A DNA stretch of 64,000 bases from Klebsiella pneumoniae (GTDB taxonomy: Bacteria > Pseudomonadota > Gammaproteobacteria > Steroidobacterales > Steroidobacteraceae), in assembly GCA_945873095.1 (NCBI GenBank), contig CAMCBU010000004.1:62001-126000 (forward strand), written 5' to 3'. Of the stretch, positions 5,658 through 60,630 are shown one piece after another. The notes beneath the pieces were generated by a model that saw only the letters and a program-made list of their open reading frames with translations, was not told where the DNA came from and did no database searches. Both the position numbers and the translations under genes were made by a program. Each line of letters starts with the position of its first letter. Positions within the stretch are counted from its first letter, which is position 1.

Positions 5658-5681
5658 TCTAGAGGATATCGAGGGCGGCTA

Positions 5682-6701
5682 TCAGTTGTCCGTCGAGTCC
5701 GGACCGCGCGCCCGGTTCCAGGCGATGGAAACCAGGATCGACACGGCGAGGATGGCGCCGATGATGGCGAGCGACCAAGTGATCGGAAACTTGCCGCCAA
5801 AGGCATGATTCAACCAGACCATCTTCAGACCGACGAAAACCAAGATCACCCCGAGCCCGTATTTCAAGAAAAGGAACGCCTTGACCATGCTTTGCAGCAC
5901 GAAAAAGAGCGACCGCAACCCGATGATGGCAAAGATGTTGGAGGTGAAGACGATGAAGGGCTCGTTGGTGAGTGCGAATATCGCCGGTACCGAATCGATC
6001 GCGAAGATGATGTCGCTGAACTCGATGAAGGCGAGCGCCACGAAGAGCGGGGTCACCCAAGTCTTTCCGTCGATCTCAACCCAAAACTTGTCGCCGTGGA
6101 AGGCGGGCGTGACCGGGAACAGCTTCTTGACGCCGAGGATGATGGGGTTACGCGACGGATCGAGCGGCTTTTCCGGCAGAAACAGAATCTTGAAACCGGT
6201 GAGAATCAAAAACACACCGAAGATCACTACGATCCACTCGTACTGCATCAGGATCGAGCCGAGCGAGATGAACAAGGCGCGGAAGAGGATCGCGCCCATG
6301 ATCCCGTAGAACAGGACCTTTTGCTGGTACTGCACGGGCACCGCGAAGTACGAGAACACGGCGACGAAGACGAACACGTTGTCGATCGCCAGCGCGTATT
6401 CGACCACATAGCCTGCGAGGAACTCCAAAGAGGTATCCCGCGCGAGCTGAGCATGGTCCATACCGGCAAGCACGGGGCGAGTCGGCAAGTCGTAAAGCAA
6501 GAACTGATAGAGGCCGTAGTTGAAGGCCAACGCCAACGCGATGAAGATGACGCTACGAATCGCAGCGGACTTCAGACTCGGGATCGTACCCGGCTTACTG
6601 AACACCCCAAGGTCAAAGGCCAGAACGGCCAAGAGCGCGAGGATGAACCCGACGTAGGCCCACCAATAATCGGCAAAAGGGATCAGCAGCAAGTCTTCCA
6701 T
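5682..6701 (-). CDS. Alx-type TerC family membrane protein
   Basis: This 339 aa integral membrane protein has about nine hydrophobic helices. It carries the TerC/Alx acidic membrane motifs EYALAIDNVFVF and FSDIIFAIDSVPAIFALTNEPFIVF, and the overall layout of the E. coli Alx (YgjT) branch (about 320 aa). Members of this branch are linked to Mn2+ export and pH response. E. coli alx follows a yybP-ykoY Mn riboswitch. Here only 48 bp separate the start from the upstream lipoprotein stop, so there is no room for that riboswitch, and the gene is more likely read from the promoter upstream of the 56 aa gene. A second, unrelated-looking TerC protein is encoded at 33,627. Confidence 0.88.
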   Translation of the reverse strand: MEDLLLIPFADYWWAYVGFILALLAVLAFDLGVFSKPGTIPSLKSAAIRSVIFIALALAFNYGLYQFLLYDLPTRPVLAGMDHAQLARDTSLEFLAGYVVEYALAIDNVFVFVAVFSYFAVPVQYQQKVLFYGIMGAILFRALFISLGSILMQYEWIVVIFGVFLILTGFKILFLPEKPLDPSRNPIILGVKKLFPVTPAFHGDKFWVEIDGKTWVTPLFVALAFIEFSDIIFAIDSVPAIFALTNEPFIVFTSNIFAIIGLRSLFFVLQSMVKAFLFLKYGLGVILVFVGLKMVWLNHAFGGKFPITWSLAIIGAILAVSILVSIAWNRARGPDSTDN

Positions 6702-6749
6702 GACCGGCCTATCGAGCGAACTTGAGATCGCAACAGTTTACTGGTTCGA

Positions 6750-7190
6750 CTACGGTCTGACCAGAACGACGCGGGGGCCATCCGGCCCGGGCTGCGCCAG
6801 ATAGGGCACCGTCGCCTCGATCGGGGCGACACCCGGAGTACCAAGGTTGATGCGAACCTCGGCTTGGCACGACAGGGCGTCGGTCGTCGAATCCTTGAAG
6901 CGATCCGTCACCGAGCTGAAGGTGACTTCGACATGGTCTTCGTAGAACTCGCGACACGCGTCTCGACAAGCCTGCCCGGGCTTACCACTCGAAACGTCGC
7001 ACGCCGACTCGACCGACGGGGATTCCGGCCAGCGTCCACCGAGACATTGCGACGAAAACTCCGCTACCGCACGTTCCTTCAGAATGTCGGCGACGCGAGC
7101 GCTGACCGACGAATCGGCGCAACTCAAGCGGGGCTCCGAACAGCCGGCCGACAAAACGGCCATCAGCGCGATCAACACGACGAGCTTCAT
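6750..7190 (-). CDS. Predicted lipoprotein
   Basis: The start was moved to the ATG at 7188-7190, which gives 146 aa with a clear lipoprotein signal: MKLVVLIALMAVLSAGCSEP, lipobox LSAGC. The mature part is Cys-rich (about six cysteines) with DILKERAVAEFSSQ and DHVEVTFSSVTDRFKDS. No family is recognised. Its ATG overlaps the stop of the 56 aa upstream gene (ATGA), so translation is probably coupled, and alx lies 48 nt downstream. Location at the inner or outer membrane cannot be decided. The longer ORF-track start at 7298 would put the signal peptide internally and is rejected. Confidence 0.75.
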   Translation of the reverse strand: MKLVVLIALMAVLSAGCSEPRLSCADSSVSARVADILKERAVAEFSSQCLGGRWPESPSVESACDVSSGKPGQACRDACREFYEDHVEVTFSSVTDRFKDSTTDALSCQAEVRINLGTPGVAPIEATVPYLAQPGPDGPRVVLVRP

Positions 7191-7357: not shown

Positions 7358-8309
7358 GGCACTACCTTACAACATCAACGTCGTCATCGACGAGCCCGAC
7401 CAAGATCGATGGAACGAATTCCACCACGCAGGTCACGGCGCTTGGGAACAGGCTTGGGCGTACGGGGAAGCGATGCGCTCGCTCGGGTCCGTCGTTCGTC
7501 GAGTGCGTGTGACGAGTGACGATGAAACCGTCGCGATCGCGCAGATTCTGGAGCGCGGACTGTTCGGCTATCTTGGCTTCGCGTCCTGTTCTCGTGGGCC
7601 GATCTGGGGCGTCCGCGCGCGAGGCGATGTCGCGCTGCGAAAAGATGCTCTGGGCGCTATTCGCCAAGCGTTGCGCAATCGCCTGCTGCACGTCACGGCC
7701 TTCACGCCCGAATTCGACGATCGCGCCAGTCGCGCAGGCGAAGAATACGTCGGCTTCCGCCAGATCATGACCGGCCTCTCCACCGTGGTGTTGGACCTCA
7801 CACGCCCACTTACCGAGATCCGTGCTGCGATGGAGACTCGTTGGCGCAATCGCTTGAGTTACGCCGAGCGTCACTGGCGCGGCGATCTCAATGTGGGTAG
7901 CAGCCTATCGGGCTTGCGTACGTTGCTCCGACTGGAGGAGCAGCAGCGCCGCGCCCGTAAATTCAACGGTCTGCCGGTCGCCTTGGTCGAGCGCTATGTC
8001 GAGGCCTCCGGCGCAACTCGCCCCTCGTTCATCATAGCCAGAGCCAATCAAAGAAATGAGCTGCAGGCAGCGATGCTCTTCGTACTGCATGCCGATCGCG
8101 CCACTTATCACATCGGGTGGGCCAACGACGCTGCACGAAAAGTCAATTTGCACAATTTGCTGCTGTGGCGCTCGCTGCCCGCACTGTGCGAGCGCGGCGT
8201 CATCGAGCTCGACCTCGGCGTCATCAACACGCGTAGCCTGCCTGGCATCTCCCGATTCAAACTCGGTGCCGGTGGCCGAGCGATCACTTTGCCCGGCACT
8301 TATCTTTGA
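7356..8309 (+). CDS. FemAB/GNAT-fold acyltransferase-like protein
   Basis: The start is placed at the ATG 7356 (317 aa; M16 of the ORF-track entry). An alternative start at 7311 would lie inside the opposite small gene. The protein resembles the FemAB/peptidoglycan-bridge acetyltransferase family of tandem GNAT folds. The supporting region is ETRWRNRLSYAERHWRGDLN followed by LLRLEEQQRRARKFNGLP and LQAAMLFVLHADRATYHIGW, then VIELDLGVINTRSLPGISRFKLG, typical of the second GNAT fold. The substrate is unknown; proteins of this type also act in exopolysaccharide clusters. Its 3' end overlaps the convergent gene at 8300 by 10 bp. Confidence 0.7.
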   Translation: MALPYNINVVIDEPDQDRWNEFHHAGHGAWEQAWAYGEAMRSLGSVVRRVRVTSDDETVAIAQILERGLFGYLGFASCSRGPIWGVRARGDVALRKDALGAIRQALRNRLLHVTAFTPEFDDRASRAGEEYVGFRQIMTGLSTVVLDLTRPLTEIRAAMETRWRNRLSYAERHWRGDLNVGSSLSGLRTLLRLEEQQRRARKFNGLPVALVERYVEASGATRPSFIIARANQRNELQAAMLFVLHADRATYHIGWANDAARKVNLHNLLLWRSLPALCERGVIELDLGVINTRSLPGISRFKLGAGGRAITLPGTYL

Positions 8310-9013
8310 GTTGTGACGGCCTGTGGCGACATCGTCGCCGCCTCGATCCAGTGCAACTTGTCTTCAAGAATCCACCAAGGAAAGTAAGCCCGCGGATGCT
8401 GAGCGGGAAACAACCGCCCGGTCCCGTGATCCCGCCACTCGCCGCCCAAGCCCAAGCGCTGTAGATCGCCTGCATGCATTCTTCGTTGCAACGTGAGCGG
8501 CGCCAACGCCGCGAATTCGTGGCGCGACACATCACCGGTATAGCAATCGTGGAAGCTCGCCCAATGATGCCGCTCCAGCAGGCGAGGTAACGCCGTCAAG
8601 ATCGTCGCATGATCCTCGCGCTCGACCGCCAGCTGCCCCAACACATTGCAGAACAAAACCGCTGCATCAGGCCATGCCGCCAAACGCGGTGCAAGCTCGG
8701 TGACGAGATCACCGCGTAGCCAGGTGAGTTCTCTGCAGCGAGGGTGATTCAGAGCGAAGAGCCAACGCGCCAGCGGATCCAAATCGAGGGCGCAGATTTC
8801 GCGAAAGCCCGCCAGCCAAGCGCTCGGCAGCGTCCAACCCGCGCTCGGCCCGACCAGAATCAGTCGCTCACCGGGCGGTGACCACTCGGTCAGCCACGAC
8901 TCGATCGCAAGACGAAACGGACGATAGCGCCGCGCCGCGCGCCATGCCCGCCAATGCCAAGCCAACCCACCGCTCGGTCGCCACAATCGGAAATCGGGCC
9001 TCATAACCACCAT
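8300..9013 (-). CDS. SAM-dependent-methyltransferase-like protein, function unknown
   Basis: This protein of 237 aa (or 234 from the in-frame ATG at 9004) shows a Rossmann-like pattern: a glycine-containing strand-loop LILVGPSAGWTLP, then an acidic second strand ICALDLDPLARWLFALNHP and VLFCNVLGQL. That layout suggests a class-I methyltransferase fold, though the first glycine motif is not a classic GxGxG. The C-terminal half contains SFHDCYTGDVSRHEF and a Trp-rich tail. No substrate can be proposed. Both ends overlap neighbours: the 5' end overlaps the opposite lipoprotein frame by 2 bp and the 3' end overlaps the FemAB-like gene by 10 bp. Confidence 0.55.
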   Translation of the reverse strand: MVVMRPDFRLWRPSGGLAWHWRAWRAARRYRPFRLAIESWLTEWSPPGERLILVGPSAGWTLPSAWLAGFREICALDLDPLARWLFALNHPRCRELTWLRGDLVTELAPRLAAWPDAAVLFCNVLGQLAVEREDHATILTALPRLLERHHWASFHDCYTGDVSRHEFAALAPLTLQRRMHAGDLQRLGLGGEWRDHGTGRLFPAQHPRAYFPWWILEDKLHWIEAATMSPQAVTTQR

Positions 9014-37974: not shown

Positions 37975-37984
37975 TTAAACGACA
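37670..37984. repeat. Direct repeat copy 2 (315 bp) carrying a tRNA-Met 3'-half
   Basis: This is the second copy of the block at 34,543-34,854. The tRNA-Met(CAT) 3'-half lies at 37,672-37,713 and again lacks the 5' half and CCA. The first ~130 bp are nearly identical to copy 1, the middle has more differences, and the end (gagcgataaacgagtcgtca, then the palindrome) is again well conserved. The palindrome supplies the stop codon of the macro-domain gene. Confidence 0.8.
37969..37984. repeat. 16 bp palindrome, copy 4
   Basis: Perfect TGTCGTTTAAACGACA. On the minus strand its GTC GTT TAA provides the last two codons and the stop of the macro-domain gene. Confidence 0.8.
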
Positions 37985-38505
37985 TTTACCTGCGTAACAG
38001 GGATGGCCTCGTAGAAGATCTGATACAGCATCGCATCCACGACTGTGAATCGGATCTCCTGCAGGTGGCTAAGATTGGGAGCCAGCTGAAAGGCGGTTTT
38101 CACGAGTATCGGTACCGCCTCATCGATCGGATATCCATAGATCCCCGTCGATATCGCCGGTACGGCGAGGCGCCGTATCTTTTGAGCGTCGGCAAGCCGC
38201 ACCGCGCTCTCTAATGCCCTAGCCAAATTGGCGGGAGGATTCGGGTCTTCGTGGTACTTCGGTCCGCGGGTATGGAAGAGTTTTGCCGTAATCTCGAACC
38301 CTGGCGAGGCGATGGCTTCCCCGAGCCCGAGCGGTGCCAACGGACGGGTGTAACGCTCGAGTTCTGGTCCGGCGGCTTTATAGATCGCGCCGCAGACACC
38401 GCCGCCTGCGATGAGATACGCGTTAGCGGAATTGACCAGGCCGTCGCAGTCGGTCTGCTTGAGGATATCCCCTAAAACTACGGTGACCTGAGCGGTCGCT
38501 TTCAA
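37975..38505 (-). CDS. Macro domain protein (ADP-ribose binding)
   Basis: This 176 aa single-domain protein carries the macro-fold hallmarks: VVLGDILKQTDCDGLVNSAN, the ADP-ribose loop YLIAGGGVCGAIYKAAG and the phosphate loop RLAVPAISTGIYGYP. Such proteins bind or hydrolyse ADP-ribose, O-acetyl-ADP-ribose or ADP-ribosylated targets. In mobile DNA they occur both as metabolic enzymes and as antitoxins for ADP-ribosyltransferase toxins. No such toxin gene is recognisable next to it. The last codons and the TAA come from the repeat palindrome, so the C-terminus may be altered. A MORN gene lies 12 bp upstream on the same strand. Confidence 0.85.
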   Translation of the reverse strand: MKATAQVTVVLGDILKQTDCDGLVNSANAYLIAGGGVCGAIYKAAGPELERYTRPLAPLGLGEAIASPGFEITAKLFHTRGPKYHEDPNPPANLARALESAVRLADAQKIRRLAVPAISTGIYGYPIDEAVPILVKTAFQLAPNLSHLQEIRFTVVDAMLYQIFYEAIPVTQVNVV

Positions 38506-39034: not shown

Positions 39035-40099
39035 TTACTCCGTCTCGACCTTACACACTGACTTCATCACGCGCTTCAATAACTGATCGCGCGACAGCGA
39101 GGTATTGGCGGAGGGAAGCGCGGTCTCCGAGGGGAGCATCAGCGACGCCACCTGTGCATGACGTGCGTAGTTGACGAGCTGCATCGGGCTACCCGATCCG
39201 TCTTCCTCGATCGACGAATCGATCACGCCGATCACCTTACCGGAATACGACACGACCGGTCCGCCGGAGCTCCCCGGCTGAATGGGGATCGATACCTGTA
39301 GCAAGGTCGGCTCCTGCGAAGGACCAGAGAGCGAGGTGACATTACCCTCCGTGAACTTCGCCTCGGCACCGAGCATCTTGGGGTTCGGGAATCCGATCGT
39401 GAACGCCGACATGCCGACCGAGATGTCACTCGATTCACCGAGGGGCAGCCACTCAGGGGTAGACACCTTGGTTCGTAGGAGTGCGAGATCGTTGTCGGAA
39501 GATTCGCGCAGTACGTCCGCCTCGCCTTTTCGGCCATCCGGAAAGACCACCGCGATTTTGGTTGCGTTATCAACCACGTGATACGAGGTCAGTAATAAAC
39601 CATCCGGCGATATGGCGAAACACGTGCCGGTCCCGGTCACAGGATCGTCGTACTGAAACTGCGACACAGCATAGGCGCAGCTCGATGCGTTACAACTTGG
39701 CATGCGCACCTTGAGCACGAGCTTGTTGGTCTTGCCAGATTCAAGATCGACTCGGGGGGTGTCGTCTTCCCCTTCATCGAGTTCCATCAGCCGGCCATCT
39801 GCTGTGACGATACGCAGATCGAGATCTGCACAAGCCCGATCGCAGGCTGCAATCACGGTGGCGTCATGCGCACCTGTGATATCGAGCGGGATCGTTGTTT
39901 CTTCACCATGCCCGAGTCGCCCGACGTATACCGTGCCGATCTGCCGAATGGTCCGGTCACGGCTATCGGCCTTTGCCTTGAGCCACCCACTGTAATCCGC
40001 CATCTGTAGCCGCGCCTGATGCTCGCTAGAACTGACGTAAGAGTCGCAGCCTGCTATCAGAGCGACTGACACCAGAATCGAAATAATGCAGTGCTTCAC
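39035..40099 (-). CDS. Trypsin-like (S1C) serine protease lipoprotein
   Basis: This 354 aa protein has a lipoprotein signal, IISILVSVALIAGCDSY. The N-terminal ~150 residues form a beta-rich domain (VYVGRLGHGEETTIPLDI, NKLVLKVRMPSCNASSCAY). A chymotrypsin-fold protease follows, with His in LLTSYHVVDNATKI, Asp in ESSDNDLALLRTKV and Ser in PIQPGSSGGPVV. There is no PDZ domain, unlike DegP/DegS. It is probably an envelope-anchored protease. The start overlaps the stop of the upstream 109 aa gene (ATGA), so they are coupled. Confidence 0.88.
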   Translation of the reverse strand: MKHCIISILVSVALIAGCDSYVSSSEHQARLQMADYSGWLKAKADSRDRTIRQIGTVYVGRLGHGEETTIPLDITGAHDATVIAACDRACADLDLRIVTADGRLMELDEGEDDTPRVDLESGKTNKLVLKVRMPSCNASSCAYAVSQFQYDDPVTGTGTCFAISPDGLLLTSYHVVDNATKIAVVFPDGRKGEADVLRESSDNDLALLRTKVSTPEWLPLGESSDISVGMSAFTIGFPNPKMLGAEAKFTEGNVTSLSGPSQEPTLLQVSIPIQPGSSGGPVVSYSGKVIGVIDSSIEEDGSGSPMQLVNYARHAQVASLMLPSETALPSANTSLSRDQLLKRVMKSVCKVETE

Positions 40100-41845: not shown

Positions 41846-42817
41846 TTAACGCTCCGCATATTTACCGGCCGCCGCATCTAGCGCTTCGCCGACGGTCTTT
41901 CGTAAGGACGCCGGCCCGAGCACTTCGACGTTGGGGCCATGCCGAAGGATGTCCATCACGAGCTCGGGCTCGTGTTTGTAGGGGATGCGCAGGATCACCC
42001 CGCCGTCTTTTTGCGGTTCGCTCTTGACGCCGGGGTGCCACTCTTCTTCTGCAACCCAGCGTGCGGCAAGTTCGTTGAATCGCAGCACCGCGATCTTGTC
42101 AGCTTTCCCTGTGAAGATGCCGTAGCCCGAGTCGAGCTCTCCGGCAATCAGATCGGGTGGCGGGTCGTAAACAGTCTCAGTCATACAGCGCGGTGCGGTA
42201 ATACGATCCACTGAGAACACCCTCATCTCCTCGCGCTCGTGACACCACGCGGCGAGATACCAATTGCTGCGATAAAAGGTCAGGCGCAGTGGGGAAGCAC
42301 TTCGTGATTTTTCCTCGTTACGAGTTCGGCTGCGATACACAAACTGCAGCCGTTTTCGGGCACGGAGCGCTGACAGCACCGTCGCAAAGGCATCCGCACT
42401 GGTATTCCGCAGCTGCGACATGCGCAGTCGGATGCGCTCGGTCAGATCCCCTTTTCCAAAGGCCTGACGTCGAACCTTACCGAGACGGGAGCGGACCGAT
42501 TGAGTCTCATCGCGCACAAATCCCGGCGGGATTTGCTCAAGCAATGCCTCGACCTCCAACAACGCCGAGATCTCCCGGCCTGACAGTCCGAGCAGTACCG
42601 CGGCGTTGGGATCATCAGGACTACGCTCTAATCGATACCCGCCCTGCTCCCAATCGTAGCGGATGTCGACGCCGCGCTGATCGCGCAGGAATGAAATCAG
42701 CCGCTTGACCGTCGCCGGGGAGGCGCCCGTCTCATCGCAGAGTGCGGCAAGCGGTAACGGCTCGCGGGTGCGGCAGAAGATGCCGAAGATCTCTTGGAGT
42801 TTTTCGAAACGGGCCAT
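41846..42817 (-). CDS. WYL-domain transcriptional regulator
   Basis: This 323 aa protein has an N-terminal winged helix (KLQEIFGIFCRTREPLPLAALCDETGASPATVKRLISFLRD) and a WYL domain (RLQFVYRSRTRNEEKSRSASPLRLTFYRSNWYLAAWCHER, FSVDRI). A C-terminal WCX-like extension follows (GVILRIPYKHEPELVMDILRHGPNVEVLGP). WYL regulators bind nucleotides and often repress phage-defence operons (BrxR/CapW type). Here it is divergent from the small HTH gene and the 1808 aa helicase-nuclease. A perfect 10 bp palindrome lies 34 bp upstream of its start as a possible operator. Confidence 0.9.
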   Translation of the reverse strand: MARFEKLQEIFGIFCRTREPLPLAALCDETGASPATVKRLISFLRDQRGVDIRYDWEQGGYRLERSPDDPNAAVLLGLSGREISALLEVEALLEQIPPGFVRDETQSVRSRLGKVRRQAFGKGDLTERIRLRMSQLRNTSADAFATVLSALRARKRLQFVYRSRTRNEEKSRSASPLRLTFYRSNWYLAAWCHEREEMRVFSVDRITAPRCMTETVYDPPPDLIAGELDSGYGIFTGKADKIAVLRFNELAARWVAEEEWHPGVKSEPQKDGGVILRIPYKHEPELVMDILRHGPNVEVLGPASLRKTVGEALDAAAGKYAER

Positions 42818-42851
42818 GCAGCACCAATAGAACCGACCATCGGCTCAAAAT

Positions 42852-42861
42852 ATGAGCTCAT
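42852..42861. promoter_or_regulatory. Palindrome ATGAGCTCAT, candidate WYL-regulator operator
   Basis: A perfect 10 bp inverted repeat about 34 bp upstream of the WYL gene start and within the divergent intergenic region of the defence-like locus. A second weaker dyad (TATC-ggct-GATA) is near 42,943-42,954. Position suggests autoregulation; the binding protein is inferred. Confidence 0.4.
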
Positions 42862-43046
42862 CCTATGTTGTTCAACAGCTGGATGGAATCGCGGATTGAC
42901 GCTCAAACAACCCTGATTTTTGATGGTAATTCACAATCAGCTTATCGGCTGATACTGCGCCTATGGACGATGGGCTCGGCGGGGTTTCAGTTTATGAAAC
43001 TTTTCCCCTATCCTGCCCTCCAGTACCCGTAACCGGACAGACCCAA

Positions 43047-43256
43047 ATGGCCACGACCCACGGCCGGACCGGCATCCTGACCATCCCCGAAATCGCCAAG
43101 CACCTGAAGGTCACCGAGCGAACTAGTTACAAGATCGCGGCGTCGAGGAAGATCACGGCATTTAAAGTTGGGAGGAGCTGGCGGCTTTCGATGCCAGACA
43201 TCGACCGCTGGATTACGAAACAGTCAACCACCGCGCACAGATCGAGACTGAGATAA
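43047..43256 (+). CDS. Small excisionase/MerR-like HTH protein
   Basis: The start is tentatively at ATG 43,047 (69 aa); an in-frame ATG at 42,963 would add 28 unconvincing residues. It carries the HTH_17/excisionase pattern: ILTIPEIAKHLKVTERTSYK, IAASRKITAFKVGRSWRLS, then DIDRWITKQ. Such proteins act as recombination directionality factors or as small transcription factors. It precedes the helicase-nuclease gene by 42 bp on the same strand, so it is probably its operon partner. No strong Shine-Dalgarno is visible. Confidence 0.7.
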   Translation: MATTHGRTGILTIPEIAKHLKVTERTSYKIAASRKITAFKVGRSWRLSMPDIDRWITKQSTTAHRSRLR

Positions 43257-43298
43257 ACGCCAATCATCGCTATGAACTATTTCTTGCGTGCTTAACCT

Positions 43299-46200
43299 AT
43301 GACAGAGCGGACATCATTGCTCACTGCTGCATTAGAGCAGCTACGTCTGAAACTGCTTGATCTGACCGGCCGTAACCGTCTCGTTAATTTCAAGCATACG
43401 GCAGGAAGATCGCTGCAGTTTGTCCAAGGTAATCCCGAAGCAATTTATAACAAGCTGGTGGAAGGAACAGGTCGTAGTGCCATCAACATCCTCGGTCTTT
43501 CCGAACCACCCCGTAAAAACTGGATCGAACGCAACGGACGGTTACAGCGACCCGACCCGCGCGAATGGGCGACCGTCGATCGTGTTCCGACTTCTTACGA
43601 CATCGTGTCCGGCACAGACGGAATAGCGGACGCGAATGTTCGAGCATTGATGTACCCGGATGATCTAGCTAAGCACTGCCGCAAGATCGAGCGCGAGGCA
43701 AAATTAGCCATTGAAGAAACCGGCGCGAACATGCTTTTTATCGTACTCGGGTTTCTTGAGTTCCCGGATCAACGTAATAGCGATAACAAGTTTCTGGCGC
43801 CTTTAATCAGCATTCCCGTGTCGCTTCAAAAGCGTGAAGTGGCTGGCATTCAGCAGTTCTCTGCTCAATACACTGGCGATGACATCACGGAAAATCTATC
43901 TCTCAGAGAGAAGCTGCGTAACGATTTCGAAATCGTATTGCCAGAGCTATCAGAAGACGAGATTGATGTTGAAGGCTATTTTAGAAGTATCCGAAAGGTA
44001 ATCAAGCATCAGCCTGAGTTCGCAATCCGAACTCGCGTGTCACTTTGCTTGCTTAGCTTTAGCAACATGCTACTAGTCAGGGACCTCGACCCCTCAAAGT
44101 GGCCATCTATTGATGATAAAAATGCGTTACTCGATCACCCAATAGTCAAGGAGGTATTTGAAGGTCGGGCAGATGCTGGCGGGGCTGCATTGGGAATAGC
44201 GGAAGAACATCCTGTTGAGGAAGGCCCCGGTACAGAGATCCCACTTATCTATGACGCAGACAGCTCACAACACAGCGCGCTCGTCGACGTTCTGGCACTA
44301 AACAGAAACCTCGTCATTGAGGGTCCGCCAGGCACTGGCAAATCGCAGACGATCACGAACCTCATAGCTGCATGCCTCTCGAAAGGAAAGAAGGTCCTAT
44401 TTGTTGCTGAAAAACTGGCAGCGCTCGAAGTCGTCAAAAACAGACTGACTCTCGCCGGTCTCGATCCTTTCGTTTTAGAACTACACAGCAATAAAACGAG
44501 CAAGAAACGAGTCCTTGAGGAGCTTGAAGCTCGAATCAAATTTCGGCCGAGTGTCTCCAAAGAACTACCGAGACTTCAAGAACAGATGGAGTCACACCGC
44601 CGAGACCTAAAGGCGTACTCCGATCTAATCAATTCAGTGTCATGTAACTCCTTCGGGCTCACGCTGCATCAAATCATGTGGCGAGCTGAGAAGTATCGTC
44701 AAAATCTCAAGACGGACGAAACCTCGCTGACTCAGATCGCCGTCGAGGATGCGTCTCAAGTTTCCGCGGTTGAGTTAAGTCGTCGGATGGAGCTCCTCGG
44801 GTATCTGGCCGATCAATATCGCGCCACAGGGGGATTTGATTCGAATTGCGCGTTTTGGGGCTTCTACCCAAAACCGTTAGTCCCTGGCGATGAAATTCGG
44901 CTTTCAGCTATTTTCAAAGAGGCGGAGACTACCAGCGAGAACCTTGTCCATTTCGCCGATGCCTTAGCCGGGGCATTGGGTGAGAGCATCCATAACGTAG
45001 GCGTCCAGTATTGTGAAAAGCAGATCCATACGCTTAATCCGCTGATCGCGGCCGCGAATGCCCGACTCCCGTTTGAGCTAACCCCTACGTTATTCGCGGA
45101 CGATGACTCCGGCCGTGCCGCCTCTGCCGCGCTGAGCACCTTCTCGAGCCGAGTGACTCGGTATCACGAACTGGAACCTAGCGTAACCTGTGCACTGACA
45201 GACGATGCGAAGGTTAGTAACGAGTCCCGTGCGGGGCTCCAAACCCTGCAACGGTCTGCCGATAGCCTGGGCGCCGCCTTGGCAACACTCCACGATATTG
45301 AGTCACTAGCACAGCGGCTTTCTGATTTGGCGGAAAGCCTAGGAGCGGCTGCGGCGAAGCTGGAGACTTTCTCCCAGCGCCTTCAGATCCCGTTCGATGG
45401 TTCTCGCGAATCTCTGAAGCGACTCGCAGAACTGACCGCACTTGTCAGCGAGCCACCCGAGCAGCATCTACATCTTTACTCCCCAGCCATTGGTCGGGAT
45501 GGAGCCACTCAGGCGATCGAAGCGCTTGATGCTCTTCAGTCGCAGTGGGTTAGCCTTGAGGAGTCACTCAATCAGTCGCTGTATCTCGATGTCCTTCCGC
45601 CTGAATCGGAGATTCGGGAGGCAATGCTGACTCTTCGTGAAGGCGATGCTTGGTACCGAGTTTTTCAGAGTCACTGGCGCCGTGCGATCCGACTCCACAA
45701 ACGCCTTCTACGCATAAAGCAACGATCACCGACTCTAGATCGACTAATTCAGCTTGAGCAAATCCTGAAGCTGATTGACTTGAAGCGCCAGTGGCAATCG
45801 TCAACTACGTGGAGAGATTACTTAGGGATACAAGGCTCTGAAGCGGCCGTGCCACTCGATGGCTATCTCGCGCTCGCGAAATGGAGCCACTCCTTAAAAC
45901 GGTCACTTGACGAGATTGAGGCCACGCTGATCAGACCGGAAGATTTCACCGCTGAAAGGATTCGCTTGCTTCGGCGTGAGTTTTCTGCGAACAGGGGCGA
46001 TGTTTCATCCGCGGTATCGGCGTTCGGCAGCCTGCACGACCTGCTGCCTCGGCTCGTTGACTTCAACGGTGGCAGTACAATTTCAAAAACTATCGAGAAG
46101 TCCGTCGAATTAAAAAATGCGCTTTCGGCACGCCTTCCATGGCTTCGAGCCAATGCGAGAAGCACTGCGAATTTCAATAACGTCATCGCTGGCTGTGATG

Positions 46201-48725
46201 CAGCTTTAGAGCGCCACGAGCTGAGGAATCTGATCGAGTCAGATCAAAACGTCAAAAATCTCCTCAGCACCACTTATCACGGTGTCCAGACAAACTGTTT
46301 GGATGCGATGGAGGTTTTGCGGATTGGTCAGAGCTTAGATTCGCTCGACTTATCTCCTCAGGTGAAGACCCGACTCAGGAGCGCGCATCTTCTCGACACC
46401 GCGAAGATACTCGTCGCACGCCTCGCAGATGTCCTTGGCGAACTTCGCAGTGTTGAGGCGTTTAGCAACACGCTCTCCGAGTTCGGAGTCTTCGATCTTG
46501 CTGACTGGGTTGGCGATGACCCTAATGGCGATATACAGAGCTTTGCGCGAGCGTTCCGCGATTCGTCGAAAAAGGCCGCTGCTAGTCCGGATCTTCTGAT
46601 CCCTTGGGCGCTTTACATCGCGCGACGAGGAGAAGCGGTCGAGGCTTCTCTGAGTGTCTTTGTAGAGCTACTTGAAGAACGACGCTTAGATCCGAACGAG
46701 CTTACAGATGCCTACGCGTACTGCGTATACAGTTCGATTACTCGGATGGCCTTCAGAAAAATCTCACAGCTTGGAAGATTCACGGGACTGAAACATAACC
46801 AGATCCGCGAAGAGTTCCAACGACTTGATAAAGAACTCATCTCGCTACGCGGAAAGGCTGTTGGACAACAGTGCGCTCGGACGATTCGAATCCCGCCCGG
46901 ACGCAGCGGAGCGCGGCTCGACGACAAAACCGAGATGGTTCTTTTGAACTATCTGATACCGCAGCAGAGACCGCGGATGCCTGTCAGGAAAATGCTGAGC
47001 CGTGCCGGAAGCGCAGTCCAGGCACTTAAACCTTGTTTCATGATGGGCCCGCAGGCGGTGGCTCAGTACCTGGCACCGGGTGCCGTTAAGTTTGATCTCG
47101 TCATTATGGACGAAGCCTCGCAGCTGCGGCCCGAGGAGGCTATCGGCGCGATCGCTCGTGGCGGTCAGTTAGTCGTGGTTGGTGACCCGAAGCAATTACC
47201 ACCAACCTCATTCTTCTCACGGATGACCCAAGATGGTGACTCGGGCGAGGAACAGTTCTCGACGACCGATGCTGAAAGCATCCTTGATGTCTGCTCGTCG
47301 CACTTTCATCCGACTCGAGCGCTTCGGTGGCACTACCGCTCGCAGCACCACTCCCTGATCGCTTTCTCAAATCACAACTTTTACCAAGGCAACCTTGTCA
47401 TATTCCCCTCCCCTTACGGTCAAGGCGGACGATTGGGAGTTCGAGCGACTTATCTCGCGGATGCGGTCTACGAGCAGCAAACAAACATACGGGAGGCTAA
47501 GCGCGTCGTAGATGCCGTCGCTGAGCACATCGCGACACGCCCCGGCGAATCGCTGGGTGTCGTCACCCTCAATATTAAGCAGCGCGATTTAATCGCTGAG
47601 CTGTTAGACGAGCGACTCAAGACGGCGCCTGGGGCCGATTCGTATCGTGATCATTGGACCACCGCGGGGCAACCGCTCTTCATCAAGAACCTAGAGAATG
47701 TTCAAGGCGATGAACGTGATGCGATAATCATCTCGACAACTTTCGGAAAACCGCAAGGAGCAAATGCGGTAAGACAGAACTTTGGTCCGATCAGCCGACA
47801 GGGTGGATGGCGTCGACTAAACGTGCTCTTCACTCGAGCCAAGAAATCGATCGCGCTGTATACCTCGCTTCGTCCAGAAGACATCATCGTGGACGGAGCG
47901 ACGCCTGAGGGCACTAAAGCACTTCGAAATTACCTTGAATACGCTCGCACGGGTTTGTTGCCCACGATACAAGAAACGGGTCGCGATCCTGATAGCGATT
48001 TTGAAATTGCAGTCATGGATGTCCTAAAGCGACGCGGCTATGCGGTTACACCTCAGCTTGGGGTTGCGGGGTATCGAATAGACATAGCGGTCAAGCACCC
48101 GGATGCGCCGGGCGCGTATCTGGCAGCCATCGAATGCGACGGCGCCTCCTATCATTCAGCACTTTCCGTGCGCGACAGGGATCGTATCCGGCAAGAGATT
48201 CTTGAGGCTTTGGGATGGCGCGGACGAATTTGGCGCATCTGGTCAACCGATTGGTTTCGCACGCCGAGGCAGGAGACTGAGAAATTGCTCGGTTTCCTCG
48301 ATGATCTCCGACGTAACTGGCGCCCGGAACACACCTCAAGCGATGCGTGGATTGAGGAGGGACAGGCGCCTAATGCTACCGTCGATGATTCACAATTTAG
48401 ACCCGCAGTCGGTGATGTTCCGACACTCTCCGAGACTGATCGAAAAACCGTCAGCGCCGCATTGATCGATACTGGTGAGGACCTAGAAGTTGAAGTGGGC
48501 GATCTCGTCCGTTACCTAGACAAAGCCCGACCCGATGACGTTTTGTCCGTTCAGATAACCAAGGGCAAGGATGACTTCACCAATGGCATCGTGAATGAAA
48601 GTCGACCTCTTGCCCAAGCGCTACTTGGTGCCGTCATTGGAGATGAAGTGGCTTTACATCTCGTTGGACAGCCCCCAAAAAAATTATTGGTCATTGAGAT
48701 AAGACGGCTTAAATCAGATATCTAA
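43299..48725 (+). CDS. Giant DUF4011-type SF1 helicase with Vsr-like nuclease and GreA/B-like C-terminus
   Basis: This 1808 aa protein starts at ATG 43,299. Residues 1-300 match the DUF4011-type N-terminus (LRLKLLDLTGRNRLVNFKH). A superfamily-1 (DNA2/NAM7, COG1112-like) helicase follows: Walker A EGPPGTGKSQTITNL (K about 348), then a ~900 aa helical insertion, Walker B LVIMDEASQLRPEEA (D about 1271), VVVGDPKQLPPTSFF, WHYRSQHHSLIAFSN and NVLFTRAKKSIALYT. A Vsr/MTES_1575-like nuclease follows: GYRIDIAVKHP (D about 1595) and AIECDGASYHS (E about 1612). The last ~75 residues (VGDLVRYLDKARPDDVLSVQ to ESRPLAQALLGAVIGDEVAL) align by eye with the GreA/GreB C-terminal domain. It is likely a defence effector acting on foreign nucleic acid. 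Lower GC than the core. Confidence 0.85.
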   Translation: MTERTSLLTAALEQLRLKLLDLTGRNRLVNFKHTAGRSLQFVQGNPEAIYNKLVEGTGRSAINILGLSEPPRKNWIERNGRLQRPDPREWATVDRVPTSYDIVSGTDGIADANVRALMYPDDLAKHCRKIEREAKLAIEETGANMLFIVLGFLEFPDQRNSDNKFLAPLISIPVSLQKREVAGIQQFSAQYTGDDITENLSLREKLRNDFEIVLPELSEDEIDVEGYFRSIRKVIKHQPEFAIRTRVSLCLLSFSNMLLVRDLDPSKWPSIDDKNALLDHPIVKEVFEGRADAGGAALGIAEEHPVEEGPGTEIPLIYDADSSQHSALVDVLALNRNLVIEGPPGTGKSQTITNLIAACLSKGKKVLFVAEKLAALEVVKNRLTLAGLDPFVLELHSNKTSKKRVLEELEARIKFRPSVSKELPRLQEQMESHRRDLKAYSDLINSVSCNSFGLTLHQIMWRAEKYRQNLKTDETSLTQIAVEDASQVSAVELSRRMELLGYLADQYRATGGFDSNCAFWGFYPKPLVPGDEIRLSAIFKEAETTSENLVHFADALAGALGESIHNVGVQYCEKQIHTLNPLIAAANARLPFELTPTLFADDDSGRAASAALSTFSSRVTRYHELEPSVTCALTDDAKVSNESRAGLQTLQRSADSLGAALATLHDIESLAQRLSDLAESLGAAAAKLETFSQRLQIPFDGSRESLKRLAELTALVSEPPEQHLHLYSPAIGRDGATQAIEALDALQSQWVSLEESLNQSLYLDVLPPESEIREAMLTLREGDAWYRVFQSHWRRAIRLHKRLLRIKQRSPTLDRLIQLEQILKLIDLKRQWQSSTTWRDYLGIQGSEAAVPLDGYLALAKWSHSLKRSLDEIEATLIRPEDFTAERIRLLRREFSANRGDVSSAVSAFGSLHDLLPRLVDFNGGSTISKTIEKSVELKNALSARLPWLRANARSTANFNNVIAGCDAALERHELRNLIESDQNVKNLLSTTYHGVQTNCLDAMEVLRIGQSLDSLDLSPQVKTRLRSAHLLDTAKILVARLADVLGELRSVEAFSNTLSEFGVFDLADWVGDDPNGDIQSFARAFRDSSKKAAASPDLLIPWALYIARRGEAVEASLSVFVELLEERRLDPNELTDAYAYCVYSSITRMAFRKISQLGRFTGLKHNQIREEFQRLDKELISLRGKAVGQQCARTIRIPPGRSGARLDDKTEMVLLNYLIPQQRPRMPVRKMLSRAGSAVQALKPCFMMGPQAVAQYLAPGAVKFDLVIMDEASQLRPEEAIGAIARGGQLVVVGDPKQLPPTSFFSRMTQDGDSGEEQFSTTDAESILDVCSSHFHPTRALRWHYRSQHHSLIAFSNHNFYQGNLVIFPSPYGQGGRLGVRATYLADAVYEQQTNIREAKRVVDAVAEHIATRPGESLGVVTLNIKQRDLIAELLDERLKTAPGADSYRDHWTTAGQPLFIKNLENVQGDERDAIIISTTFGKPQGANAVRQNFGPISRQGGWRRLNVLFTRAKKSIALYTSLRPEDIIVDGATPEGTKALRNYLEYARTGLLPTIQETGRDPDSDFEIAVMDVLKRRGYAVTPQLGVAGYRIDIAVKHPDAPGAYLAAIECDGASYHSALSVRDRDRIRQEILEALGWRGRIWRIWSTDWFRTPRQETEKLLGFLDDLRRNWRPEHTSSDAWIEEGQAPNATVDDSQFRPAVGDVPTLSETDRKTVSAALIDTGEDLEVEVGDLVRYLDKARPDDVLSVQITKGKDDFTNGIVNESRPLAQALLGAVIGDEVALHLVGQPPKKLLVIEIRRLKSDI

Positions 48726-48836
48726 ACGATATTTTTACTTACGCGATTTGAGGTTCATTCACAGAACTTTTAACGTAAATCCTACAGGACGATTCATTGA
48801 GCATTACTGAGTAATTTTACTCGCCATCAATTCCCA

Positions 48837-49280
48837 CTACACGTTTTGAGTGGATCGAATTTTGATCCGGTGCCGACGAATCTCAAGATAAAGATACCCG
48901 AGAACCGGGATCCCGAGACCCGCTTGGGCGAGACCAATCTCATAGTGCAGCGGATCGGCCCAATCGACGATTTGAATGAGATACCCAAGCGCGATCAGCA
49001 GGAGCAGTGCATAGCCAAACCACCGTACACCCGACCCCTGGCGCACCAAAACCATCGCAAAAAGAAGACAGGCGAGAGAGAAGAGCCCGTAAAACATCAT
49101 CCCCATGAGCGGGATGCCGATAGAGTCCCCATCGGATGGATACACATCGTTACTCTGGTTTCGAACGAGCACGGCCTCTGAGACCTCGAGCGCGACGAAG
49201 GTCAACAAGAGATTCAGTAATCCATGAACCCAGCGGCTCGGCGCCAGAAACTTTTCGCGGATGCGAATCAGATAAGACAT
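48837..49280 (-). CDS. Small four-TM membrane protein
   Basis: This 147 aa protein has four TM segments: WVHGLLNLLLTFVALEVSEAV, IPLMGMMFYGLFSLACLLF, VRWFGYALLLLIALGYLIQI and EIGLAQAGLGIPVLGYLYL. It has a basic C-terminus. No family is recognised. Its ATG directly follows the TAG of the PD-(D/E)XK gene (TAGATG), so they are translated together. It is the last gene of a three-gene operon. Confidence 0.65.
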   Translation of the reverse strand: MSYLIRIREKFLAPSRWVHGLLNLLLTFVALEVSEAVLVRNQSNDVYPSDGDSIGIPLMGMMFYGLFSLACLLFAMVLVRQGSGVRWFGYALLLLIALGYLIQIVDWADPLHYEIGLAQAGLGIPVLGYLYLEIRRHRIKIRSTQNV

Positions 49281-50033
49281 CTATTTTTTCTTCTTTCGAC
49301 CGAGCAGCGCCGAACGCTCTGAGACATACCGACAGGTATCGCAATCATCCGCGGCATCCGGTATTTGATCGTGCTGAAAACATGCCACCGCCGCACTGAT
49401 GCAATCATCGACCCAGTCTGTATTGCCTTCGTGAGCCAACAACGTGGTCACGAATCTCATACGACCTTCACTCTCATCGTAGAAGCCGCCTTCCTTAATG
49501 CCGTTGACGTACAAAAAGTAACCGATCGAGCTGACCGTAAACCCCGCTTGCCGATAGATCCATTGATAGATCTCGATCTGCCGCTTGTAGCCTGCACCAA
49601 ACCCGCCCTCGAGATCGGGGATTTCTTTTTTCGACGTCGACTTGTAATCGACGATGTGCAGATCGTCACTCTCTCGGTGCTGCCAGAGATCGTCGATGGC
49701 GCCGTAAATAGTCGCCCCCGTGGCCGCGTGCGTAACGCGCAGACCTTTGAAGTTACTGCGCCAGGTTTCGAGGTCCGGATGCGAAAACGCCCGAACCGAA
49801 AGACCGTTCTCGTCCCACACGGGGTGCGAGGCTTCGCTTCCTCGAATGGCGTCAAATTCATTCTTGAGCAGCGCATCGGTGGCGACGGCGAGCGTCAATG
49901 GAATCCGCGAAAGCGGTTTGAGCCCCTGGCGGCGGTGCAGATAAAAGCACCGCGGACATTTGAGATAGTCCTCCAGCGCCGAGCGGGATAACACGGGGGC
50001 CTCGCCGGGGACATACGCTTTTTTCTTAGGCAT
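49281..50033 (-). CDS. PD-(D/E)XK nuclease (Cas4/RecB-like)
   Basis: This 250 aa protein shows the RecB/Cas4-type nuclease core. It has LSRSALEDYLKCPRCFYLHRR at the N-terminus, GAIDDLWQHRESDDLHIVDYKSTSK with the catalytic D...DxK, and QIEIYQWIYRQAG as motif QxxxY. Two cysteines in CPRC and two in DDCDTCRYV could hold an Fe-S cluster as in Cas4/AddB, but spacing was not checked against a structure. No cas genes or CRISPR arrays are present in the window. It lies 9 bp after the zinc-ribbon protein gene and joins the membrane protein gene downstream. Confidence 0.85.
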   Translation of the reverse strand: MPKKKAYVPGEAPVLSRSALEDYLKCPRCFYLHRRQGLKPLSRIPLTLAVATDALLKNEFDAIRGSEASHPVWDENGLSVRAFSHPDLETWRSNFKGLRVTHAATGATIYGAIDDLWQHRESDDLHIVDYKSTSKKEIPDLEGGFGAGYKRQIEIYQWIYRQAGFTVSSIGYFLYVNGIKEGGFYDESEGRMRFVTTLLAHEGNTDWVDDCISAAVACFQHDQIPDAADDCDTCRYVSERSALLGRKKKK

Positions 50034-56940: not shown

Positions 56941-57789
56941 ATGACGACGAAGACGAAAGGGAAAACTGAAACAGCCGGGATGCCTGCGATCTCTGTTGAT
57001 TCGAGTTCCATGACGGTAACGACCCGCGAAGTCGTTGAGGAAGGCACCCCCATTGAGACTTGGGCCGAGTCCATCGTGCGCGAGCAGCGCTCGATTACTC
57101 GGGATGAGGTGTTGGCCCACTTGGGGGATCTTGAGGCGCGTCGCAAGGAAGTCGAGGGTGGCATTTTCCGGCGTGCGCATCACGCCGTGCACTTGCTCCT
57201 CGCTGACTGCTTGGCACTTGCGCAGCTCGATGAGTCGCTCGATCCCGAGCAGGCTCGCGATCGGGCGCTCGATGCCTTTCTCTCAGCCCGAGAGCTCGCG
57301 AGCAAAAAGGACGAGCCTATTTTCTCAAAGGCAATCTCAGCCGTGTTCGGAGAACTGCATCGCTCTCGAGTCAGTACCTATCGCACGGTGCTGAAGGCGG
57401 CGAGTCAGGCGGGGATCACCGCTGCTGCACTGCCCGCTTGGATCGAGCAGCAAGGGGGTGTTCAGGAAGTTCGTCTGAGTGCTGGCGGTACGGGTGGTAC
57501 GAGCTCGTCAGAGATGGCGAACCTCACGCTCGAGTACCTCCTCGACAAAGGCAGTCTCTATGCCCTGCAGAGTGACGCCCTCTCGAAGCAGTTGACGATC
57601 GAGAGTAATGGCAAGGAGGTAGTGCTGGTGGCTACCAAGCAGCGAGATGGAACGTTGATGGTGCATGCAGCCATCGAGGATCCCAATTGCGTGAAGAAGG
57701 CGATCGACGCCTTTCAGCGCAAGAACCAAGAAGCGATCAAGGAGTTCAAGTACGAGCTCAAGTATCGCCCGGGTCTGCGTGCTGCGTAA
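56941..57789 (+). CDS. Hypothetical DNA-binding-like protein, first gene of the AAA operon
   Basis: The start is placed at ATG 56,941 (282 aa), 7 nt after AAGGAG; the ORF-track GTG lies one codon earlier. Residues 60-130 are helical (RSITRDEVLAHLGDLEARRK, RRAHHAVHLLLADCLALAQL). A segment HRSRVSTYRTVLKAASQAGITAAALPAWI looks like a helix-turn-helix. After a Gly/Ser linker (LSAGGTGGTSSSE) the C-terminal domain is beta-rich (LTIESNGKEVVLVATKQRDG). No family is recognised. It is followed by the AAA gene after 95 bp. A ParB-like or partition-related role is possible but unsupported. Confidence 0.65.
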   Translation: MTTKTKGKTETAGMPAISVDSSSMTVTTREVVEEGTPIETWAESIVREQRSITRDEVLAHLGDLEARRKEVEGGIFRRAHHAVHLLLADCLALAQLDESLDPEQARDRALDAFLSARELASKKDEPIFSKAISAVFGELHRSRVSTYRTVLKAASQAGITAAALPAWIEQQGGVQEVRLSAGGTGGTSSSEMANLTLEYLLDKGSLYALQSDALSKQLTIESNGKEVVLVATKQRDGTLMVHAAIEDPNCVKKAIDAFQRKNQEAIKEFKYELKYRPGLRAA

Positions 57790-57884
57790 GCGCTGATCGG
57801 ATTGGGGGCGGCGGTGAGACCTTCATTGCCGCCCCTCTATCCCAGCTTCCCTATTTGCCCTCTTCCCTCGCCGGAGCACCTTCA

Positions 57885-59366
57885 ATGACAACGTCTGATT
57901 TCACCCCTCAATCCGTTCACGACATCATCGTCTCATCGCCGCAGTCACGATCGACACTGCAACGACTGGTAGCGGGAACCTATCCACTTCCTTCCGAGCG
58001 CTCGGCAGTGATCGTGCTCTCGGGACCCTATGGCAGCGGCAAAACCTGTCTTGCGCGATTGCTGCCAGACGCTCTTGAGAGAGCCTATGGATCACCACCC
58101 TCATCGACCAACCCAGTGCCGTACTCCTATTTGGATTGTCGTTCGGGAGCCAGCGGGCGTTCCATCCTCGCGCGCTTAGAGGAACTGACGACCTTTAGCC
58201 CAGCGGGTAATGCCAGTCGGTTCTACCTCATTTGTGATGAGATCGATAATCTCTCGAAGTCCGCTCAAGAAGCGATCTATCAGCTGACCTATCGATCCAA
58301 CATCGTTTGGATCCTGACGACGAACTATCGCTCCCGTATCGACTACCGTCTGCTGGCTACGGGAATCGATATCCTGTTGGACGCTCCCTCTAAAGCGCAT
58401 TTGGCCAAGCTCGCCATCAATATTGCTAAGCACTTTGACCTCAGTATCTCGACTGAAGAGGCTCATCAAATCGCTCTCGCCTGTCATGGCTCATGGCGAC
58501 AAGTGTCGGAACGGACGCTCCAAGCGATCAGTCGAACACTATCGCCGCAGAAAACGGTGCAAGCCTATGGCGATAACCGACGACGATACGATCAGGTCGT
58601 AGAGAATGCTGCACAGACCCCAATTCAGCAACTTAAGCCCCGTTATCTCGATGAACTGATCTTCGACGATAGCGAATCACGCGATGTCGCCTATCGCATT
58701 GCAAGTGGTATCGCCCAGCCACCTGCTGATCGATGCTTCGGGATATTGATTTATGGTGAGCCGGGTACCGGTCGAAAGACGCTCGCCAAGCTCTTACCGA
58801 CAACCATCGAAGGGATCGTCTATCAGCATCACGATCCGCTCTTTGAATCGGATACGGTGATCTGCCGTGATGGTGTTTTGGGCCTGGCAGATGTTAGCCA
58901 TGTATCGATGATGCTCAATCACGCCGTGATCGGTAACCCGAGCGGTCTGCGCTATGTGACATTGGTCGATGTCGAGAAGCTCAGCCCCGGCGCTCAGCAG
59001 GATCTGAAGTCTCTGATGAATCGGCCTCGAGTGGTATTCATTCTTATTGCTAATCGACTGACGGGTATCGATGCGGGCGTCCTTGATCGATGCGCTCATC
59101 GCATCTATATGCCCTGGCCCGAGACAACGCTACTGAAGTCTTGGATTGATCGTGTTGCACACATCACCAAACCGACCGTATCCACAGCGGAACTCAACTC
59201 GCTTTACTCACTCCCCGTACGCGGCTTTGCAAAGCTCGCCGCGGCGATTGACGATGCACTCGCACCTCAACCGCCCGATAACTTTCATCAGATAAATGTA
59301 TCTCGCGCATTTACCGGTATGGATCAAACCGCGCCCATCACCCATGACGAGAGGATGGCGTCATGA
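57885..59366 (+). CDS. Tandem-AAA ATPase, clamp-loader-like
   Basis: The start was moved to ATG 57,885 (493 aa). The first AAA module has Walker A LSGPYGSGKTCLARLL and Walker B FYLICDEIDNLSKSAQEAIY, then a sensor-1-like WILTTNYRSRID. A second module begins near LKPRYLDELIFDD, with IYGEPGTGRKTLAKLL, where the usual lysine position is Arg followed by Lys, no clear Walker B (LVDVEKLSPGAQQDL), and VFILIANRLTGIDAGVLDRC. This active-plus-degenerate tandem recalls clamp-loader or RFC-type subunits. The ATG of the next gene overlaps its stop (ATGA). Probable role in replication or repair of the element. Confidence 0.75.
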   Translation: MTTSDFTPQSVHDIIVSSPQSRSTLQRLVAGTYPLPSERSAVIVLSGPYGSGKTCLARLLPDALERAYGSPPSSTNPVPYSYLDCRSGASGRSILARLEELTTFSPAGNASRFYLICDEIDNLSKSAQEAIYQLTYRSNIVWILTTNYRSRIDYRLLATGIDILLDAPSKAHLAKLAINIAKHFDLSISTEEAHQIALACHGSWRQVSERTLQAISRTLSPQKTVQAYGDNRRRYDQVVENAAQTPIQQLKPRYLDELIFDDSESRDVAYRIASGIAQPPADRCFGILIYGEPGTGRKTLAKLLPTTIEGIVYQHHDPLFESDTVICRDGVLGLADVSHVSMMLNHAVIGNPSGLRYVTLVDVEKLSPGAQQDLKSLMNRPRVVFILIANRLTGIDAGVLDRCAHRIYMPWPETTLLKSWIDRVAHITKPTVSTAELNSLYSLPVRGFAKLAAAIDDALAPQPPDNFHQINVSRAFTGMDQTAPITHDERMAS

Positions 59367-60030: not shown

Positions 60031-60630
60031 TCAAATCAGCTCAACGGCTTTTCTCACAGTCTGCGGATCGGTATCGATGTAACGCTGTAGCACCTGAAGA
60101 CTGCGATGTCCCGAGAGCTGCATCAAGACACGAGCCGCCACACCTTTTGCAGCCAAGTTCGTAATGAACCCTCGCCTGCCGCTGTGTGAACTCGCTCCTG
60201 AGATGCCGGCGCCCCGGTAGATGTAATGGAAGACCTGGGCGCCGGTATTGGGTGTAAACCCACGATCGGGATGCTTTTGGGTGGTAAAGAGCGCGCGATT
60301 CAGATCCGTCAGCAACACGGGCTTTAGATCCTTCGTATTGAAGCGATTCAGTAGATACTGACGGATCTCGTCTTGTGCTTTCTTGGGAAGCAATACGACT
60401 CTGCCCCGATCTCCTTTCGTCTGACTGGGCTTGAGACGAATCTCGTCTTTGATCTCCGCTTCCGGGGTCAATACATCCCCCAGTCGTATAGAAACCAATT
60501 CTCCGACGCGCATTCCGGTGTAGTGCGATAGCAATACCAGGGCGCGATTGCGGGATGCGTGTTTACGCCCCGCGATGAACAACAACACTTTTCGAACTTC
60601 TCGATCCGACAGAACTCGGGCTTGTGACAT
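60031..60630 (-). CDS. Tyrosine recombinase of FimB/FimE size
   Basis: This 199 aa protein is a catalytic tyrosine-recombinase domain without the usual N-terminal SAM-like/core-binding domain. The catalytic set is complete: Arg in YTGMRVGELVSIRL (R41), Lys in PSQTKGDRGRVVL, His-Arg in SSHSGRRGF, His in LSGHRSLQVL and Tyr in QRYIDTDP. The length matches FimB/FimE-type invertases more than phage or island integrases of ~400 aa. It may serve the element's integration, or invert a local segment. It lies inside the island, 22-27 kb from the tRNA-fragment repeats. Confidence 0.85.
   Translation of the reverse strand: MSQARVLSDREVRKVLLFIAGRKHASRNRALVLLSHYTGMRVGELVSIRLGDVLTPEAEIKDEIRLKPSQTKGDRGRVVLLPKKAQDEIRQYLLNRFNTKDLKPVLLTDLNRALFTTQKHPDRGFTPNTGAQVFHYIYRGAGISGASSHSGRRGFITNLAAKGVAARVLMQLSGHRSLQVLQRYIDTDPQTVRKAVELI

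Follow-up and report, generated by a model that had tools for sequence, protein, structure and literature searches.

The stretch of DNA analysed here, referred to below as the window, comprises 64,000 nucleotides of Klebsiella pneumoniae (assembly GCA_945873095.1, contig CAMCBU010000004.1, positions 62,001-126,000 of the forward strand) and contains three neighbouring genes that a first-pass annotation had combined into one candidate defence locus. The first encodes a WYL protein (41846-42817, minus strand; Pfam WYL 77.5 bits, WCX 54.8 bits). Divergent from it and at a distance of 145 bp lies the gene of a small HTH_17 protein of 97 aa (42963-43256, plus strand; Pfam HTH_17 42 bits), which is followed by the gene of a DUF4011-SF1 helicase-nuclease of 1808 aa that carries a GreA-like tail (43299-48725, plus strand). 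All three open reading frames are present exactly where they had been annotated, and their domains were found by Pfam. Two features had been missed, namely the GreA-like domain at the C terminus of the large protein (about aa 1727-1803) and the boundaries of an insertion at 42826 and 48832. In the wider surroundings, the window encodes a Macro-domain protein (37975-38505, minus strand; Pfam 97.9 bits), a protease-like protein matching the RT-Protease models of PADLOC (39035-40099, minus strand) and a PD-(D/E)XK nuclease-like protein (49281-50033, minus strand; PDDEXK_1, 47.8 bits), the gene of which is resident in genus relatives with 66-92% identity. An AAA ATPase (57687-59366, plus strand) and a phage-integrase-family protein (60031-60630, minus strand) are both encoded in the low-GC half of the window; the latter gene is 11 kb off the inserted segment and not evidently linked to it.

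The large protein had been described as a DUF4011-type SF1 helicase with a Vsr-like nuclease, and the Pfam domains bear this out. Its DUF4011 domain (aa 18-206; 43350-43916, plus strand) scores 119.5 bits, and AAA_11/AAA_12 are found in the helicase as well. The Walker A motif GPPGTGKSQ (aa 342-350; 44322-44348, plus strand) contains K348, and helicase motif II, DEAS (aa 1271-1274; 47109-47120, plus strand), shows a conservation of 90% or more in the family. The MTES_1575/Vsr-like nuclease (aa 1568-1665; 48000-48293, plus strand; Pfam REase_MTES_1575, 116 bits) has D1595 within the sequence RID and E1612 within IECDG. K348, D1595 and E1612, the residues proposed earlier for mutation, are all intact, and almost every full-length relative in the alignment has them as well. 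The core of the helicase most closely resembles those of Sen1, SMUBP-2 and NAM7/Upf1, and Foldseek matches the nuclease to the catalytic domain of I-Bth0305I and to NGO0050. Between motifs I and II lies a large all-helical region (aa 388-1245; 44460-47033, plus strand) that AlphaFold2 predicts with a mean pLDDT of 88, and no convincing fold match was found for these about 860 aa. Within this region there is a WR-x5-H motif (aa 793-800; 45675-45698), in which W and R are conserved to 90% or more across the family as a whole and H is present in 96% of the close relatives. Its spacing is HEPN-like, but fold support for a HEPN reading was looked for and none was found.

The history of the locus can be read from two empty sites, L162 and L163. 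In both cases the nucleotide alignment with the window ends at 42825 and restarts at 48833 with nothing between, and these identical breaks show that a segment of 6.0 kb (42826-48832), containing the HTH and helicase genes only, was inserted between resident genes. The gene on the far side of this cassette (48837-49280, minus strand) lies outside it, and its homologues adjoin the WYL gene at the empty sites: in L162 a 71% homologue lies on the same strand as the WYL gene and 10 bp from it, and in L163 an 83% homologue directly adjoins the WYL gene, with a spacing that equals that of L162 provided the aligned codon is the WYL start. A 69% homologue of the protease-like gene at 39035-40099 also directly adjoins the WYL gene in L162. 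No terminal repeats (none of at least 14 bp) and no target-site duplication beyond an overlap of about 2 bp were found at the ends of the cassette, and a search for promoters and terminators found none. Moreover, none of the 23 genus relatives searched contains a full-length homologue of the helicase. The WYL protein of the window has relatives with 66-92% identity in six genus genomes, all of which are without the helicase, and relatives with 36-48% identity in three further ones. A second copy that is 83% identical is present elsewhere in the window genome (L161; G000:C41:1859-2821), where it adjoins a 67% homologue of the nuclease-like gene at 49281-50033.

The WYL gene is thus a resident gene of the genus and stands outside the defence system; it is not co-inherited with the effector, and its divergent arrangement with the HTH gene is a by-product of the insertion. 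Therefore, the claim of a co-inherited three-gene defence locus, in which the WYL protein would repress the divergent HTH-helicase pair, could not be upheld. The distance of 145 bp and the divergent orientation would fit such a repressor, and eight close relatives (L003, L004, L006, L008, L014, L015, L022 and L030) have a WYL gene directly upstream of the helicase gene, which indicates that WYL regulation of this helicase occurs elsewhere. However, these WYL proteins are encoded on the same strand as the helicase and belong to a different subfamily, being about 26-27% identical to the window WYL protein over about 100 aa. Together with the resident WYL genes in genomes that have no helicase, this leaves the three-gene reading very improbable, and the empty sites largely refute it. 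An initial impression from BLAST (E=1e-3) that WYL is nearly absent from the relatives was corrected by a family search, in which the eight close relatives were positive.

Which regulator sits upstream of the helicase varies. The helicases of L002 and L003 are 90% identical, but L002 has an HTH_17 gene 30 bp upstream, the product of which is 52% identical to the HTH protein of the window, whereas L003 has a WYL gene. The upstream position is therefore taken by different regulators, and for the window helicase the HTH protein of the cassette itself is the likelier regulator. We rejected the idea that HTH_17 is a universal partner, as it is directly upstream in the window and in L002 only, among the genomes checked. 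The HTH protein of the window also stays below the threshold of MAD1 of the MADS system (57.8 bits, cut-off 80). In L003, L008 and L030 a Wadjet JetA-like gene of about 494 aa (about 5400-6890, minus strand) adjoins the WYL-helicase pair, and neighbours of the related loci, considered with no control set, match models of Wadjet JetA, type I methyltransferases and WYL.

Concerning its family, the helicase-nuclease belongs to the Hhe superfamily, where its clade is a third one beside those of Hhe and ProA. Both Hhe and ProA are named anti-phage proteins. The earlier statement that the genes match no named system was too strong, since Hhe is the nearest named system, yet the score against Hhe (NCBIfam NF042953, PADLOC PDLC02194) is 1356 bits and thus below the cut-off of 2000. 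The window protein matches model positions 1-1695 of 1797 and shares with Hhe the build of one large protein with DUF4011, SF1 helicase and MTES_1575 nuclease in the same order and with intact catalytic residues. However, Hhe ends in a helical RLLRP-type tail and the window protein in a GreA-type tail. ProA (NCBIfam NF058533; 1087 bits, cut-off 1500) has the core in common with the window protein, but has a longer N-terminal part, so that aa 9 onwards of the window protein correspond approximately to ProA position 354 onwards, a different tail and a separate clade. A search for papers on ProA found none. The best PADLOC match of the helicase is the phage-defence candidate PDC-S37 with 1213 bits, but we rejected this as a name: the model also scores Hhe with 1290 and ProA with 1243 bits, and the window clade leaves the last part of the model unmatched, so that it does not discriminate. 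There is a further likeness to CnuH of the type III-B CoCoNuTs, in which a helicase with a helical insertion is fused directly to a Vsr-like nuclease (PMC11090510). CoCoNuTs are McrBC-derived systems with a McrB-type GTPase (PMC11090510), whereas no such partner accompanies the window helicase, since the cassette contains the HTH and helicase genes only.

The separate clade was seen in a tree of 80 helicase-nuclease cores, which took in two plasmid-borne annotated Hhe proteins, Hhe-scoring chromosomal proteins and ProA-scoring proteins. The window protein falls into a clade of 49 rows with an SH-aLRT value of 98, in a quick tree that was calculated without bootstrap and has some long branches joining on the side of ProA; the annotated Hhe proteins (L128, L129) fall into another clade. 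Members of the window clade are spread over Pseudomonadota, Acidobacteriota, Nitrospirota, Thermodesulfobacteriota, Myxococcota, Bacteroidota and others.

The feature of this clade is the C-terminal domain of about aa 1727-1803 (48477-48707, plus strand), which resembles the C-terminal domain of GreA/GreB by profile, AlphaFold2 model and Foldseek. Compared as a profile with solved structures, the last approximately 92 residues match GreA (1.4e-5) as well as Gfh1 and Rnk (3.7e-3). In the AlphaFold2 model, nuclease and tail each form a confident domain, and a low-confidence linker runs between them. All 14 Foldseek matches of the tail with E <= 0.001 are GreA, GreB, Gfh1, Rnk or complexes thereof, the best being GreA in an RpoB-GreA model (9.4e-7). 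The fold of the FKBP-like C-terminal domain of GreA/GreB, Gfh1 and Rnk is therefore also that of the tail, but the N-terminal coiled coil with its acidic tip is absent, as the tail is preceded by the low-confidence linker after the nuclease, and the nuclease itself is a further difference from these factors. A profile of the tail was positive in 44 of the 49 clade members, including 16 of the 21 that were not used for building it, and in none of 32 proteins outside the clade. The five members without a match are L006, with a broken reading frame and the Gre-type domain in the next open reading frame, L019, L031 and L060, which are shortened, and L062. Among 399 Pseudomonadota genomes sampled, the tail part of a nuclease-tail profile matched open reading frames of GreA/GreB size in most, and just one genome, that of the window, was found to contain the full Gre-tailed form. 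L123 has a ProA-scoring gene that is immediately followed by a Gre-type tail (8030-8350), decayed and interrupted by an in-frame stop, which looks as though ProA had taken the place of a window-clade gene there.

The exception L062 (labelled Akkermansia) has a DksA-like domain in place of the GreA-like C terminus (L062:13125-13601), which matches PF01258 above the cut-off with 27.9 bits and has a DksA-type PDB match of 1.1e-17. The same genome contains a separate DksA-like open reading frame that is 71% identical to the fused domain. A search of 289 genomes of the phylum of L062 found this fusion in L062 only; the other nuclease-helicases that were read in this phylum have other tails with no Gre match.

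From homology to the Hhe/ProA superfamily and from the mobility of the segment we infer that the cassette is probably a horizontally acquired unit of an HTH_17 regulator and an Hhe-like anti-phage helicase-nuclease, a judgement that extends to the cassette and its Hhe-like defensive role and leaves docking of the tail aside. The scores below the curated cut-offs of Hhe and ProA speak against it. The original proposal of a candidate defence locus is hence still plausible in view of the relatives Hhe, ProA and PDC-S37 and of the absence of a full-length homologue in the 23 relatives, but not with the WYL protein as a member. As an alternative, the protein could be an accessory factor outside defence, whose helicase and nuclease resolve stalled transcription complexes or R-loops at RNA polymerase. 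The Sen1/SMUBP-2/Upf1-like core combined with a GreA-like domain would suit such a factor, as would the precedent of HelD, but we consider it improbable, because its distribution is patchy (the genus relatives without it, and the single Gre-tailed form among the Pseudomonadota sampled), the insert is mobile and the named proteins closest to the enzyme are anti-phage proteins.

For the putative anti-phage enzyme, the ATP-driven SF1 helicase of the Upf1/Sen1 type with its large helical insertion would engage invading nucleic acid, and the Vsr-like nuclease would then cut it in a manner similar to Hhe. The GreA-type domain on its flexible linker may dock on RNA polymerase at the beta-prime rim helices, which are bound by the globular domains of GreA and DksA (PMC7527559), and docking would place the enzyme at phage DNA under transcription or at transcription complexes perturbed by a phage. 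A precedent is HelD; this SF1-like NTPase bears a Gre-like arm and can invade RNA polymerase and dislodge nucleic acids (PMC7749165). Helicase core, GreA-like tail and this precedent together lead to the proposal that an Hhe-like enzyme may be tethered to RNA polymerase, although the window protein differs from HelD in having a nuclease, and the docking of its tail is a prediction. Judged from sequence and models, we hold docking for possible, but only tentatively so. By alignments read by eye, S121 and S124 of GreA correspond to Asn1766 and Arg1769, and the exchange S121P in GreA reduces binding (PMC7527559). Furthermore, the C-terminal Gre domain is present alone, with the coiled coil absent, and the DksA-like domain comes from one genome only.

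It is also quite conceivable, if somewhat short of probable, that the protein is a self-sufficient helicase-nuclease like Hhe, with a tail that serves in folding, oligomerisation or nucleic-acid binding and has no role at RNA polymerase. On the same core, Hhe, ProA and related proteins bear tails that are quite unlike one another, so that the tail may be an accessory that can be exchanged, and the two changed positions match GreA residues at which mutations affect function. Such a plain module sits less well with the conservation of the tail in most clade members across several phyla and with the lone replacement seen, which is DksA, another RNA-polymerase-binding type. The full form of the docking proposal, a transcription-coupled anti-phage nuclease in which an Hhe-type enzyme, brought to RNA polymerase by its GreA-type domain or, in one relative, by a DksA-type domain, cuts DNA transcribed by phage-perturbed polymerase, is doubtful at present, but not far-fetched.

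For the annotation of defence systems, the two empty sites show that regulators beside defence genes can be bystanders, and calls of WYL-controlled systems made from neighbourhood only need caution. Proteins of the Hhe type are encoded in many bacteria, on chromosomes as well as on plasmids, but we found no readable paper explaining how they recognize phages. A clade with a tail of the type that docks on RNA polymerase offers a specific and testable hypothesis of target recognition.
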